This document shows, piece after piece, positions 2,916 through 39,440 of a stretch of DNA of 39,609 nucleotides. Under the pieces are notes generated by a model. That model was not told the origin of the DNA and did no database searches. It worked only from the letters and a program-made list of their open reading frames with translations. The first letter of the stretch is position 1; every line of letters starts with the position of its first letter. The position numbers and the translations under genes are program-made. The DNA lies in contig JAJVII010000069.1 in NCBI GenBank assembly GCA_022072085.1, forward strand, positions 1 through 39,609, given 5' to 3'. This stretch comes from Phycisphaerae bacterium (GTDB lineage Bacteria > Planctomycetota > Phycisphaerae > JAJVII01).

Positions 2916-2974
2916 GCCCCCTTTATTTGCCAACCAGGACGTGACCCTCACGCGATACCGCAAAGGAGCAGACG

Positions 2975-5767
2975 ATGGCAGCCAAGAAGGCTAAGAAGAC
3001 GACCAAACCCGCCAAGGCCAAGAAGGCGGCCAAGGCGGTCAAGTATGTTTACTCGTTCGGCGGCGGAAAGGCCGACGGCCGGGCCGACATGAAGAACCTG
3101 CTGGGCGGCAAGGGCGCCAACCTGGCCGAGATGGGCAAGATCGGACTGCCCGTTCCCCCCGGGTTCACCCTGACCACCGAGGTCTGCACCGCCTACTACG
3201 CCAACAACCGCAAGTATCCGGCCGAGGTCAAGCCGCAGGTCGAGGCGGCGATGGTCAAGGTCGAGAAAGTCATGGGCCTGGCCTTCGGCAGCCCGGACAA
3301 GCCGCTGCTGGTCTCGGTGCGCAGCGGCGCCCGCCAGAGCATGCCCGGCATGATGGAGACGGTGCTCAACGTCGGCCTGACCACGAAGACCATCCCCGGC
3401 CTGGTGGCGATGACCGGCGGCAACGAGCGGTTCGTGTGGGACGCCTACCGCCGCCTCATCATGATGTACAGCGACGTGGTGATGGAAAAGGCCGCCGGCG
3501 TCGAGCCGGCCGAGGGCATGGGCATCCGCATGCAGCTCGAGCACCTGATGGAGCTCAAGAAGGAGCAGCGCGGCATCACCCAGGACACCCAGATGTCCGT
3601 CGAGGACCTCAAGGATCTCTGCGCCCAGTTCCGCGCGAAGGTCAAGCAGGTCCTGGGCAAGGAGTTCCCCGACGACGCGACCGAGCAGCTCTGGGGCGGC
3701 ATCGGCGCGGTCTTCCAGAGCTGGATGGGCCGACGCGCGGTCGCCTACCGCCGCATCGAAGGCATCCCGCAGGAGTGGGGCACCGCGACCAACGTCCAAG
3801 CGATGGTCTTCGGCAACATGGGCGACGACTCGGCCACCGGCGTGGCCTTCACCCGCAACCCGGCCACCGGCGACCGCAACTTCTACGGCGAGTGGCTGGT
3901 CAACGCCCAGGGCGAGGACGTCGTCGCCGGCATCCGCACCCCCAGCCCGCTGAACAAGGCCAACAAGACCGAGCACACCCGGGATCTGCTCAGCCTCGAA
4001 GAGGCCATGCCGGCCACCTACAGGCAGCTCGTCCAGGTCCGCAATCAGCTCGAGAAGCACTACCGCGACATGCAGGACATCGAGTTCACCATCCAGCAGG
4101 GCAAGCTCTACATGCTCCAGACGCGCACGGGCAAGCGGACCGGATTGGCCGCCGTCCACGTCGCCGTCGACATGGTCAAGGAGAAGCTCATCGACAGCAA
4201 GACCGCCCTGCTGCGGGTCAGCTCGGCACAGCTCGACGAACTGCTGCACCCGTCGCTGGACCCGGCGGCCGAGCAAAAGGTGTCCGCACTCACCAAGGGC
4301 CTGCCCGCGGGCCCGGGCGGTGCGACCGGCCAGATCGTCCTGACCGCCGACAAGGCCGAGCAACTCGGCAAGACCGGCCAGAAGGTCATCCTCGTCCGCA
4401 ACGAGACCAGCCCCGAGGACGTCCACGGCATGTATGCCGCCGCGGGCATCCTGACGGCCAAGGGCGGCATGACCAGCCACGCGGCGCTGGTCGCCCGCGG
4501 CTGGGGCAAGTGCTGCATCGTCGGTTGCGGGGCGCTCAAGATCAACACCGCTGCCGGCACGGTCACCGCCGGCGGCAAGACACTCAAGGAAGGCGACTGG
4601 ATCAGCCTCAACGGCAGCCGCGGCCTGGTCTACGAAGGCCAGCTCGCCCTCAAGGCCGCCGACCCCGACAGCGACCCGGCCTACAAGCAGTTGATGAAGT
4701 GGGCCGACGCGACCCGGCGCCTCGGCGTCTGGGCCAACGCCGACACCCCCGAGGACGCCCGACGGGCCCTGGGCTTCGGCGCTGAGGGCATCGGCCTGCT
4801 CCGCACCGAGCACATGTTCTACGGCAAGGGCGCCGAGGAGCCGCTGTTCCGCCTCCGCAAGATGATCCACTCTGACTCGGTCGATGAACGCCGCAAGGCC
4901 CTCGACGAACTCTTCCCCTACGTCAAGTCCGACATGAAGGGCGTGCTGGAGTCGATGAACGGCAAGCCGGTCACGATCCGCCTGTTGGACCCGCCGCTGC
5001 ACGAGTTTGTCCCGCAGGGCGCCGAGGAACGCCAGAAGCTGGCCACCAGCCTGGGCATCAGCCTCGATGACCTGGCCAAGCGGGCCGAGGGGCTGCACGA
5101 GACCAACCCGATGATGGGCCACCGCGGCGTGCGGCTGGGCATCACCTACCCGGAGGTCAGCGAGATGCAGATCCGGGCGATCCTCGAAGCGGCCGCCGAA
5201 CTGCTCAAGGCCGGCAAGAAGCCGATGCCCGAGATCATGATCCCCGTCACCTGCGACGTGAACGAGCTGAAGAACCAGGAGGCGATCGTCAATCGCGTCG
5301 CCGCCGAGGTGAAGGCCAAGTACGGCGCCAAGAAGCTGCCGTTCCACTTCGGCACGATGATCGAAATTCCGCGGGCCGCGCTACTGGCTGATGAGATGGC
5401 CGAGTCGGCCCAGTTCTTCAGTTTCGGGACCAACGACCTGACGCAGATGAGCTACGGCTTCAGCCGCGACGACATCGGCGGGTTCGTGCCCGACTACATC
5501 GCCGGCAAGATACTGCCCGGCGACCCGTTCCAGTCGCTGGACCAGAAGGGCGTCGGCCAGCTCATGAAGATGTCCGTCACTGCCGGCCGCAAGACGCGGC
5601 CCGACCTGAAGGTCGGCATCTGCGGCGAGCACGGCGGCGATCCGCGGAGCGTGGCGTTCTGCCACCGGATCGGCCTGAACTACGTGAGCTGCTCGCCGTT
5701 CCGCGTCCCGGTCGCGCGCCTCGCTGCCGCCCAGGCCGTCGTCGGCAAGCTGCCCGAGGAGAAGTGA
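2975..5767 (+). CDS. ppdK: Pyruvate, phosphate dikinase
   Basis: 930 residues; interconverts pyruvate, ATP and phosphate with phosphoenolpyruvate, AMP and pyrophosphate in the cytoplasm. From N to C: a nucleotide-binding domain (FGGGKADGRADMKNLLGGKG, then VSVRSGARQSMPGMMETVLN), a mobile phosphohistidine domain with catalytic His502 in GGMTSHAALVARGWGKCC, and a PEP/pyruvate TIM barrel with LRTEHMF, GTNDLTQMSYGFSRDD and catalytic Cys883 in VGICGEHGGDP. All key blocks are intact. The start is fixed by AAGGAGCAGACG before the ATG. Unusually, the first 23 residues hold ten lysines (MAAKKAKKTTKPAKAKK...), an extension ahead of the usual start of the fold, making the protein longer than the common 870-900 residues. 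It stands alone with its own promoter and terminator, pointing to gluconeogenic or glycolytic PEP/pyruvate control. Confidence 0.97.
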   Translation: MAAKKAKKTTKPAKAKKAAKAVKYVYSFGGGKADGRADMKNLLGGKGANLAEMGKIGLPVPPGFTLTTEVCTAYYANNRKYPAEVKPQVEAAMVKVEKVMGLAFGSPDKPLLVSVRSGARQSMPGMMETVLNVGLTTKTIPGLVAMTGGNERFVWDAYRRLIMMYSDVVMEKAAGVEPAEGMGIRMQLEHLMELKKEQRGITQDTQMSVEDLKDLCAQFRAKVKQVLGKEFPDDATEQLWGGIGAVFQSWMGRRAVAYRRIEGIPQEWGTATNVQAMVFGNMGDDSATGVAFTRNPATGDRNFYGEWLVNAQGEDVVAGIRTPSPLNKANKTEHTRDLLSLEEAMPATYRQLVQVRNQLEKHYRDMQDIEFTIQQGKLYMLQTRTGKRTGLAAVHVAVDMVKEKLIDSKTALLRVSSAQLDELLHPSLDPAAEQKVSALTKGLPAGPGGATGQIVLTADKAEQLGKTGQKVILVRNETSPEDVHGMYAAAGILTAKGGMTSHAALVARGWGKCCIVGCGALKINTAAGTVTAGGKTLKEGDWISLNGSRGLVYEGQLALKAADPDSDPAYKQLMKWADATRRLGVWANADTPEDARRALGFGAEGIGLLRTEHMFYGKGAEEPLFRLRKMIHSDSVDERRKALDELFPYVKSDMKGVLESMNGKPVTIRLLDPPLHEFVPQGAEERQKLATSLGISLDDLAKRAEGLHETNPMMGHRGVRLGITYPEVSEMQIRAILEAAAELLKAGKKPMPEIMIPVTCDVNELKNQEAIVNRVAAEVKAKYGAKKLPFHFGTMIEIPRAALLADEMAESAQFFSFGTNDLTQMSYGFSRDDIGGFVPDYIAGKILPGDPFQSLDQKGVGQLMKMSVTAGRKTRPDLKVGICGEHGGDPRSVAFCHRIGLNYVSCSPFRVPVARLAAAQAVVGKLPEEK

Positions 5768-31111: not shown

Positions 31112-31227
31112 TCCCGGCACCAACCTACTCTCGCTGGGCATGACGCCCAACTACCATCGGCGAACCGGGCTTAACTTCTGAGTTCGGAATGGGATCAGGT
31201 GTTTCCCCGGCTCCATGGGCACCGGAA
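31112..31227 (-). rRNA. rrf: 5S ribosomal RNA
   Basis: About 116 bases on the minus strand. The conserved CCCATTCCGAACTCAGAAGT core and GAGAGTAGGT block are present. The ends pair to form the outer stem (TTCCGGTG with TGCCGGGA, with G-T pairs), which sets the coordinates. Last gene of the rRNA operon. Confidence 0.93.
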
Positions 31228-31334: not shown

Positions 31335-34330
<2,996 letters not shown>

Positions 34331-34480: not shown

Positions 34481-34499
34481 TCTTCACTTGTCAAAGAGT
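34481..34499 (-). promoter_or_regulatory. boxA-like antitermination site before 23S
   Basis: On the minus strand CTCTTTGACAAGTGAAGA matches the leader element CTCTTTGAAAAGTGAACA at 37236-37253 in 16 of 18 bases. In E. coli, boxA in the leader and in the 16S-23S spacer recruits NusB/S10. Its repetition here supports antitermination across the whole operon, including the inserted protein gene. The rest of the 307-base gap between 23S and tRNA-Ala holds no gene. Confidence 0.65.
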
Positions 34500-34636: not shown

Positions 34637-34709
34637 TGGAGACGACCGGGATCGAACCGGCAACCCCCAGCTTGCAAAGCTGGTGCTCTCCCAATTGAGC
34701 TACGTCCCC
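34637..34709 (-). tRNA. tRNA-Ala (anticodon TGC)
   Basis: 73 bases on the minus strand, GGGGACGTAGCTCAATTGGG at the start and TTTGCAA in the anticodon loop. The acceptor stem GGGGACG/CGTCTCC contains the G3-U70 pair that identifies alanine tRNA. The CCA end is not encoded. It lies 28 bases downstream of the membrane protein gene stop. Confidence 0.95.
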
Positions 34710-34737: not shown

Positions 34738-35196
34738 CTACAACCGGCTCTCCGGCGGATTCTCGCCGGGCTTGGGGGCCGAGGGGGCCGCCTGACCGCT
34801 GGCCGGAGCACTGCTCGCTCCGCCCGCCAGGTCGGCAACCGCATCGCCGCCGCACTGACTCCAGAACGCCCCGAGCACGGCGATCACGCCGTCCAGGACG
34901 ATGTAAACGTTCATGCCACCGAAATCTGCCAGCCGGCTGGGCGTCATGGCAGCAGCCGTCGCAGCGATGGCAACCAAACCAAGCACTTTGGCCAGTTTGT
35001 CATACATCAGCACGGCGCCTACGGCCACCGCACCACCCAGGATCATAATGATGATGCCCTGGAAGATGCCGTTGGCCTTCGCCCCGCCGCCCTGGCCATA
35101 GGTCTCAAAGGAGGCGACCAGGATCAATCCGATGAGGCTGAAGACAGCGACGATCACACCGCCACCTGCGGTGACCCACTTGCCCAGGTCCTTCAT
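34738..35196 (-). CDS. Four-helix membrane protein gene inside the rRNA operon spacer
   Basis: 152 residues from the ATG at 35196; AAAGGGA lies five bases upstream. An ATG at 35211 and a TTG at 35220 are in frame but have no ribosome binding site. Hydrophobic segments lie at about 8-29 (VTAGGGVIVAVFSLIGLILV), 44-64 (IFQGIIIMILGGAVAVGAVL), 69-85 (KVLGLVAIAATAAAMTP) and 96-114 (NVYIVLDGVIAVLGAFW). The last 30 residues are alanine/proline/serine-rich. Codon choice resembles the other genes here. It is on the same strand as the rRNAs, 44 bases after tRNA-Ile and 28 before tRNA-Ala, with no separate promoter or terminator visible, so it must be read from the rRNA promoters. Cutting out the tRNAs would release it as an mRNA with short ends. 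I recognise no family; its function is unknown. The intact frame, start site and helices argue for a real gene. Confidence 0.85.
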   Translation of the reverse strand: MKDLGKWVTAGGGVIVAVFSLIGLILVASFETYGQGGGAKANGIFQGIIIMILGGAVAVGAVLMYDKLAKVLGLVAIAATAAAMTPSRLADFGGMNVYIVLDGVIAVLGAFWSQCGGDAVADLAGGASSAPASGQAAPSAPKPGENPPESRL

Positions 35197-35240
35197 GGGA
35201 GTCCCTTTCATGGGTGACAACGGGCCGACTGGAATTCAAA

Positions 35241-35317
35241 TGGTGGGCCCGGGTAGATTCGAACTACCGACCTTGCCCTTATCAGGGGCACGCTCTAACC
35301 AACTGAGCTACGAGCCC
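35241..35317 (-). tRNA. tRNA-Ile (anticodon GAT)
   Basis: 77 bases on the minus strand, from GGGCTCGTAGCTCAGTTGGT to GGGCCCACCA. The anticodon loop CTGATAA gives GAT; the stems pair fully and CCA is encoded. Together with tRNA-Ala it forms the classical spacer pair, here separated by a protein gene. Confidence 0.95.
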
Positions 35318-35469
35318 GTGAGGGCCCGCCGCCGGTCGGCAACGGGCGCCAATCGCGTCGCCATGCCCGCCTGGAGGCGGGCAGAAAATATTGGAGAACA
35401 GTTAGGAGGGCGAGAAGGTGCTGACGTACAACCGGATCCCTTGCGGGTCCCGGCGTCTAGATAATCCTC

Positions 35470-37050
<1,581 letters not shown>

Positions 37051-37145: not shown

Positions 37146-37241
37146 GGTTTCACACCATAGTGTGATTGTCTCACCCGACCCCGCGCTCAACACGTGACGC
37201 GCGGACTCGAGCCACATTCTCGCTCGCTCCTAACTGTTCAC

Positions 37242-37253
37242 TTTTCAAAGAGC
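37242..37253 (-). promoter_or_regulatory. boxA-like antitermination site in the rRNA leader
   Basis: GCTCTTTGAAAA on the minus strand resembles the bacterial boxA consensus TGCTCTTTAACA. It lies downstream of the proximal promoter and of a small leader hairpin (ACCGCCC/GGGCGGT, 37258-37279). A near copy precedes 23S. Confidence 0.6.
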
Positions 37254-37569: not shown

Positions 37570-37597
37570 ACTATAGCCGGCGTTTTCCCGCTGTCAA
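37570..37597 (-). promoter_or_regulatory. rRNA promoter P1
   Basis: On the minus strand a perfect TTGACA (37592-37597), a 16-base spacer and TATAGT (37570-37575). Start near 37562, about 280 bases upstream of the P2 start. Tandem strong promoters are typical of rRNA operons. The frames between P1 and P2 do not look like genes. Confidence 0.75.
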
Positions 37598-37988: not shown

Positions 37989-39137
37989 TCAGGCGTAACG
38001 GCGGCGGGCCTTGCCGGCGATCAGAGCGACGCCGCCCAGCAGCAGCAGGCCCATCGTCGCCGGCTCGGGGACTTCCTGGGCGACCATGTAGTCGCCGGCG
38101 ACGCGCATGTAATTCAGTTCCACGGCCCCGCTGGCGTAGGTCAGGTGCGTATAGGCGTCGTAGCCCATCGCGCCGACCGTGTCGCCGGAGGCCAGGTGGT
38201 TCGGGTCGTCGGTGAGACTGAAGGCGTAGAAATCCTCGTACTTGTTCCAGCCGCTGGTGCCGATCGCGACGACGCGGCCGTCGTCCAGGGCCACCACGCT
38301 AGTGCCGCTGGTGAAGGCGCTGCCGTCGGAGTTGGTCAGGTGCCCGACGATGCCCGAGGTGTTACTGCCGTCCATGGTGGCGTCGTTAAAGACGACGTAG
38401 CCGGTGCCGCTGTAGTTGGCCATGATCCAGCCGTTGGGCAGCAGGGCGTTGTTCACGCCGGTCTGGTCGCCGCGGAATCCGCCGGTGGTGGTGTCGGTGT
38501 AGGCGGCCAGTTTGGCCAGCGTGCCCGAGCCGTTGTCGCCGACGCGCGTGGTATACATGTAGTTGCCGCCCCAGGCGGCCTCAGACCTGCCGTCAGCGGT
38601 GCGGATGCCGGCTGGCTGTGTGGGGAACGCGCCGATGTTGATCGTGCTCTCGGTGAAACTGCCCGCGCCGTCGGGCTTGAAGAAGCTCAGCGTGCTGCCT
38701 TCAGTCTGGTTCACCACGAATCCGCCGTCGGCAGTCGGGGCGATGACCGGCGAATAGGGACCGGTGGTCCAGCCGGCCAAACAGTCGACAGTGAGATCCA
38801 GCGTGGCCCCGGTAAGGGCGCCGCCGGAGTCGTACGTGAGCGTGAGCAGGGAGACCTGCGTCGTGTTGGTGGCGTTGGCCTTATGGACGACGGCCACCTG
38901 TCCGCTCTTGAGGATGGCCACGTCCTGCGTCTGGGGGGCGTAGCCGAACAGCGGGTCAAGGTCAACGATGCCCAGTCGCTCCACGGAGTTGTCGGCGTTG
39001 ACGCGCCAGACGGCCACATCCTGATAGGCGCCGTAGCCCGACGAATAGATGTTCGTGCCAACGATGATGTTCGCCTGGACGGTGGCCGCGGTCGCCATCG
39101 CCACCCCGATGCACACGCAGACGCTCAACCTTCTCAT
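37989..39137 (-). CDS. Exported PEP-CTERM sorting-domain protein
   Basis: 382 residues. The ATG at 39137 has GGAGA seven bases upstream, preferable to a GTG-type start further out. The signal peptide is MRRLSVCVCIGVAMATAATV, cut near QAN. The body is a beta-rich, threonine/glycine-rich domain with propeller-like repeats (VAILKSGQVAVVHKANATN, VVALDDGRVVAIGTSGWN). The C-terminus is a PEP-CTERM signal: VPEPATMGLLLLGGVALIAG with an arginine-rich end (KARRRYA). Such tails are recognised by exosortase, which cleaves at PEP and links the protein to the surface or matrix. The exosortase gene is not in this window. Function of the body is unknown. Confidence 0.93.
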   Translation of the reverse strand: MRRLSVCVCIGVAMATAATVQANIIVGTNIYSSGYGAYQDVAVWRVNADNSVERLGIVDLDPLFGYAPQTQDVAILKSGQVAVVHKANATNTTQVSLLTLTYDSGGALTGATLDLTVDCLAGWTTGPYSPVIAPTADGGFVVNQTEGSTLSFFKPDGAGSFTESTINIGAFPTQPAGIRTADGRSEAAWGGNYMYTTRVGDNGSGTLAKLAAYTDTTTGGFRGDQTGVNNALLPNGWIMANYSGTGYVVFNDATMDGSNTSGIVGHLTNSDGSAFTSGTSVVALDDGRVVAIGTSGWNKYEDFYAFSLTDDPNHLASGDTVGAMGYDAYTHLTYASGAVELNYMRVAGDYMVAQEVPEPATMGLLLLGGVALIAGKARRRYA

Positions 39138-39440
39138 GTGATTCTCCTCACCGCCCCTGGCCGTTGGAAATGTAACCGGCTCGACCACAAGTAATCACTC
39201 GCGGCCGCCTCCCTGGCGGAAGTCGCCGCTTGAGGGGATTAGTTCAGCAAACGGCGTACCAGAGGTCCGCCTCATCGACATCCAGATTATTACAGTATTT
39301 GTAAGCTATTTCTGATAATAATCTTAGGCGTGTTTCAGAATCCATTGTTGCAGTGTTTGTGTGGCGATTTGCGTTGCTTTTCCGCAACGCCCAGATGGCT
39401 GGGCGGCAACACGCGTGCCCCCTCGGGATAGACATGAAAG
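39138..39440. other. AT-richer gap without a supported gene
   Basis: Base composition drops, for example TTATTACAGTATTTGTAAGC near 39289. A GCGTTGC/GCAACGC hairpin is at 39371-39390. Short frames here lack a ribosome binding site and are not annotated. The change in composition next to a possible transposase end hints at inserted DNA. Confidence 0.4.

Follow-up and report, generated by a model that had tools for sequence, protein, structure and literature searches.

The window analysed here is the whole 39,609-nt contig JAJVII010000069.1 (assembly GCA_022072085.1) of a Phycisphaerae bacterium. Its reverse strand carries a 16S, tRNA-Ile, tRNA-Ala, 23S and 5S operon with an open reading frame (ORF) lodged between the two tRNA genes (Table 1). 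The frame begins with ATG, spans 152 codons and has no internal stops. Its predicted product, P0001, starts with MKDLGKW, has three to four hydrophobic segments and ends in a Pro/Ala-rich tail whose last residues are PPESRL. By the ARAGORN tRNA coordinates, 44 bases separate tRNA-Ile from the ORF and 28 separate the ORF from tRNA-Ala. An earlier, sequence-only reading of this DNA had described an intact frame of this length on the rRNA strand at these distances, with its own start and ribosome binding site. The coordinates match exactly, and TGAAAGG precedes the ATG.

The ORF-bearing operon was the only one found in the 5.49-Mb assembly (96.95% complete), and a pattern search detected its tRNA-Ile as the sole Ile-GAU gene of the genome. 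Because the only 16S gene and the only Ile-GAU gene found both lie in it, the operon is very probably indispensable. A separate protein gene occupies positions 37989-39188 (-) upstream of the rRNA operon; its end resembles a PEP-CTERM sorting signal (VPEPATMGLLLLGGVALIAGKARRR).

Table 1. Features of the rRNA operon and the gene between its spacer tRNAs, in the order of transcription; positions are those of the window.
Feature	Position	Strand	Basis or remark
Probable rrn promoter (TTGACA-16-TATAGT), some 520 bases 5' of 16S	37570..37597	-	sigma-70 scan
boxA-like TCTTTGAAAA, 16S leader	37242..37251	-	also in G001
5' arm GAACAGTTAGGAG of presumed 16S processing (RNase III) stem	37227..37239	-	exact 13-base arm
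16S rRNA, single copy in assembly	35473..37049	-	Rfam
3' arm CTCCTAACTGTTC of the same presumed stem, 5' of tRNA-Ile	35396..35408	-	exact 13-base arm
tRNA-Ile(GAU), CCA encoded	35241..35317	-	ARAGORN
Shine-Dalgarno-like TGAAAGG, 5' of ATG	35203..35209 (approximate)	-	sequence; same TGAAAGG before the start of the G001 homologue
Protein gene P0001, 152 aa	34738..35196	-	frame, same-place homologue in G001 and coding tests
tRNA-Ala(UGC), CCA not encoded	34637..34709	-	ARAGORN
boxA-like TCTTTGACAA, tRNA-Ala/23S spacer	34488..34497	-	also in G001
23S rRNA	31338..34325	-	Rfam
5S rRNA	31112..31226	-	Rfam

A first search of 61 genomes returned a match in one other genome, G001, which belongs to another genus of the same family; no further genome of that family was among those searched. 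The G001 homologue is divided between two contigs. Contig C532 (JAQTVL010000011.1, from the metagenome-assembled genome 'Phycisphaerae bacterium isolate STB_87') carries 16S, tRNA-Ile and the N-terminal part of the frame up to the contig end. Contig C299 starts inside the frame and continues with the C-terminal part, tRNA-Ala and 23S. At a coverage of 3.1 for C532, the frame was probably divided by a coverage break. It thus has the same tRNA-Ile/tRNA-Ala setting in G001, a placement for which the sequence-only reading had proposed to search in other planctomycete genomes. Misassembly, the danger it had named, is ruled out, since both junctions are present in a second, independent assembly.

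The G001 protein, a composite of two contig pieces whose ends share a few bases at one and the same residue, with the exact joint not seen, is 45% identical to P0001. Both proteins keep the start, the FQGI region and a final PPES(R/K)L. Identity between the 16S genes of the two genomes is 90%, with the next genome at 84%; the gene has therefore stayed in place over a long time, from before the split of two genera of this Phycisphaerae family.

The aligned pair indicates that the frame has evolved as a protein-coding one. Identical residues occupy 60 of the 132 positions aligned in frame, and at 24 of these the two genomes use different codons. The alignment core has 50 identical residues, compared with 35.4 ± 3.6 in column shuffles, and none of 5000 shuffles reached 50. 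Under BLOSUM62, frame 0 scored 295 and the remaining five frames 99-214; frame 0 is free of stops in both genomes. Codon scores pointed the same way, with 0.30 per codon in frame 0 and at most -0.12 in any other frame; the undoubted genes of the window score 0.35-0.79, so that the ORF falls just under the range of real genes. The NG86 method gave dN of about 0.53 and dS of about 1.0, an estimate of selection that comes from the single pair formed by the two known family members, with synonymous sites near saturation. Given the homologue in the same place and these coding tests, we take it as certain for practical purposes that the ORF is a genuine protein gene.

The family is small. A two-row profile search of 397 genomes of the class and of a 392-genome sample of the phylum recovered only the two known members, and a search of public genome contigs matched only the G001 record. 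The gap between tRNA-Ile and tRNA-Ala measures 531 bp here and 10-238 bp (median 89) at 33 other loci of the class. No gene was found in the gap at any of those 33 loci, where the longest sense frame has 38 codons against the 152 here. The longest gap among the other genomes, 238 bp in G002 (contig C58, locus L037, 1296-1533), has no ORF of more than 8 codons.

Linked rRNA operons were a minority among the comparators. Many near relatives (16S loci L079-L108) showed no Ile-Ala-23S block within about 3 kb downstream of 16S. In relatives that block was found together elsewhere (loci L044-L067), and 16S is unlinked in much of the class; linkage of 16S to tRNA-Ile was seen in G000, G001, G002, G006 and G015. 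Unlinked rRNA genes are known in planctomycetes from the work of Brewer et al. 2020, as cited in PMC11261877.

Hydropathy analysis of P0001 gave two strong membrane segments (residues 12-30 and 47-65) and two moderate ones (68-86 and 92-115). The sequence-only reading had proposed a four-helix membrane protein. Such a protein is plausible, with the qualification that the fourth hydrophobic segment falls under the threshold in the G001 homologue. By the positive-inside rule, the N-terminal lysines and the YDKLAK loop would put the N- and C-terminus on the cytoplasmic side.

Searches of Pfam, NCBIfam and PHROGs gave no match to P0001 at curated or significant score. An NCBIfam match to Scm1 (E 0.006) lay far below the cut-off, and the best match in a PDB sequence search that returned nothing significant was a pilin (E 0.15); both were judged to be chance similarities of hydrophobic segments. 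AlphaFold2 models were of low confidence (pLDDT 59 and 49), and Foldseek, with these low-confidence models as queries, found no match at E<=0.001. P0001 is best explained as a small protein of the inner membrane that belongs to an orphan family.

The surroundings of the gene are those of an rRNA operon. The ORF has the position of an rRNA-operon gene, on the same strand and between 16S and 23S, as judged with a consensus scan for promoters. A sigma-70 scan of the operon strand from 16S to the ORF found no promoter-like site, the only strong one being upstream of 16S; this absence is one of matches to the sigma-70 consensus, from which planctomycete promoters may deviate. No terminator-like site was found in the spacer. 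The statement that the gene has no promoter or terminator of its own therefore agrees with the consensus scan, which finds neither for the ORF.

Several of these elements recur in G001, where TTGACA-TATAGT lies at -512. The exact 13-base arms that flank 16S (GAACAGTTAGGAG / CTCCTAACTGTTC) are altered in G001 yet paired again (GAACAGTTGG / CCAACTGTTC and GGTGCGAGGATGCG / CGCATCCTCGCACC). Total duplex energy of the 16S leader plus spacer was not above that of shuffles; it is the exact 13-bp arms that support the presumed 16S processing stem. Together, the promoter, boxA and 16S stem anatomy suggest that the ORF is co-transcribed with rRNA.

These observations are best explained as a whole, we think probably correctly, by an orphan membrane-protein gene that would be transcribed from the rrn promoter and freed by rRNA and tRNA processing. 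The rrn promoter would transcribe the ORF as part of the pre-rRNA, and RNase III, acting on the processing stems of 16S and 23S, would release a spacer piece with the ORF inside. RNase P would cut before tRNA-Ala, and a tRNA 3'-processing nuclease would cut after tRNA-Ile. Maturation of tRNA-Ala requires an RNase P cut at its 5' side. An encoded CCA hinders RNase Z in some bacteria; tRNA-Ile has its CCA encoded, which leaves the cut behind it, and with this cut the mRNA 5' end, uncertain. The product would be an mRNA of roughly 530 nt with a 44-nt leader, translated from the GAAAGG site; a free message of about this length would be a natural consequence of processing. Its supply would then track rRNA transcription, up and down.

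That coupling to growth rate would require the rrn promoter to supply most of the message, and position alone is insufficient to establish it, because E. coli has a promoter within 16S. From this promoter a spacer tRNA is transcribed independently of P1/P2 and on starvation (PMC5179076, where promoters inside 16S are cited for other bacteria too). The resulting riRNA is like the present case in that 16S-23S spacer RNA can be an expression unit of its own; it differs in yielding tRNA, not protein, and in starting at a promoter inside 16S (PMC5179076). A comparable arrangement here, with a real gene whose promoter lies within 16S or in the spacer, is a serious rival, although we consider it unlikely. 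Its output would be constitutive or relatively higher in slow growth and not proportional to rRNA synthesis. The unlinked operons of related Phycisphaerae favour it: where Ile-Ala-23S lies apart from 16S, the block must have its own promoter. Against it is the absence of a sigma-70-like site on the operon strand from the 16S interior to the ORF, with the reservation that planctomycete promoters may differ.

Transcription from the rrn promoter thus remains our preferred reading of how the message arises. Its further consequence, that the dose of the membrane protein is hard-wired to ribosome production with the mRNA as a by-product of pre-rRNA maturation, is a tentative proposal that we consider rather unlikely.

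The gene might also be a harmless passenger, a relic of a mobile element or phage inserted in the spacer, with little or no function regulated by its location. Its confinement to one family and the enlarged Ile-Ala gap would fit such an origin, and protein genes are known to enter this part of an rRNA operon. In Campylobacter jejuni subsp. doylei, C. coli and C. hepaticus, blocks of several genes are inserted between 16S and 23S; C. hepaticus has them in two of its three operons (PMC5118423, PMC6371046). The glc (Entner-Doudoroff) locus is a horizontally transferable region of this kind, and an oligopeptide-transporter insertion also occurs (PMC5118423, PMC6371046). Those insertions hold several known metabolic genes, whereas the present locus has one small gene that lacks known relatives, lies between the two spacer tRNAs of the sole operon detected, occurs in two genera and shows no signs of mobility. 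No integrase, flanking target duplication or tRNA fragment was found, and the ORF borders carry no repeats except tRNA self-similarity and short imperfect pairs. Searches of plasmids, phages, viral contigs and PHROGs gave no significant match to P0001. Constraint on the frame across 10% 16S divergence makes a neutral passenger less likely, and we regard this origin as improbable.

Least credible of all is a non-coding frame left open by chance in a GC-rich spacer: length on its own is weak evidence for a gene, as a sense frame 152 or more codons long occurs in 653 of 20000 spacers (3.3%) simulated with a first-order model of matching composition, but the homologous frame at the same place in another genus, with protein-like substitutions and a conserved start, Shine-Dalgarno motif and C-terminus, together with the coding tests, rules this explanation out for practical purposes.

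Parallels to a gene that shares its transcript with tRNAs exist. In E. coli, tRNA-mRNA composite operons include thrU-tyrU-glyT-thrT-tufB and tyrT with its tpr reading frame. As proposed for the present gene, they place a reading frame on a transcript with tRNAs, from which tRNA processing frees it; they are, however, tRNA operons with the frame at the transcript end, whereas the frame here lies between two tRNAs inside a pre-rRNA. The unlinked rRNA genes of planctomycetes (Brewer et al. 2020, cited in PMC11261877) occur in the same phylum and show an unusually fluid rRNA gene order; here, by contrast, 16S and 23S are linked, with a gene fitting snugly in the spacer.

The sequence-only reading had called such a gene undescribed. 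In the open-licence literature we found no paper on a conserved single protein gene between two spacer tRNAs, and in that narrower form the statement stands; as a statement about genes between 16S and 23S in general it gives way to the Campylobacter insertions (PMC5118423, PMC6371046).

The locus suggests that an rRNA operon can double as a protein-coding operon. Bacterial 16S-23S spacers are usually taken as non-coding except for their tRNAs, and they serve as taxonomic markers. The gene offers a directly testable case of a protein message that may come from rRNA and tRNA processing and be scaled to ribosome synthesis. In the strongest version of the tentative dose proposal, if true, making the protein on pre-rRNA that is still being transcribed would also anchor the rRNA operon, and the early steps of ribosome assembly, at the membrane. 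The comparison also defines an orphan membrane-protein family whose members may escape gene callers, as rRNA regions are frequently passed over.

Elsewhere in the window, a 799-codon frame at 2948-5347 (-) runs antisense to 2975-5767 (+), a pyruvate phosphate dikinase-like gene. It is probably a shadow frame arising from high-GC codon usage.
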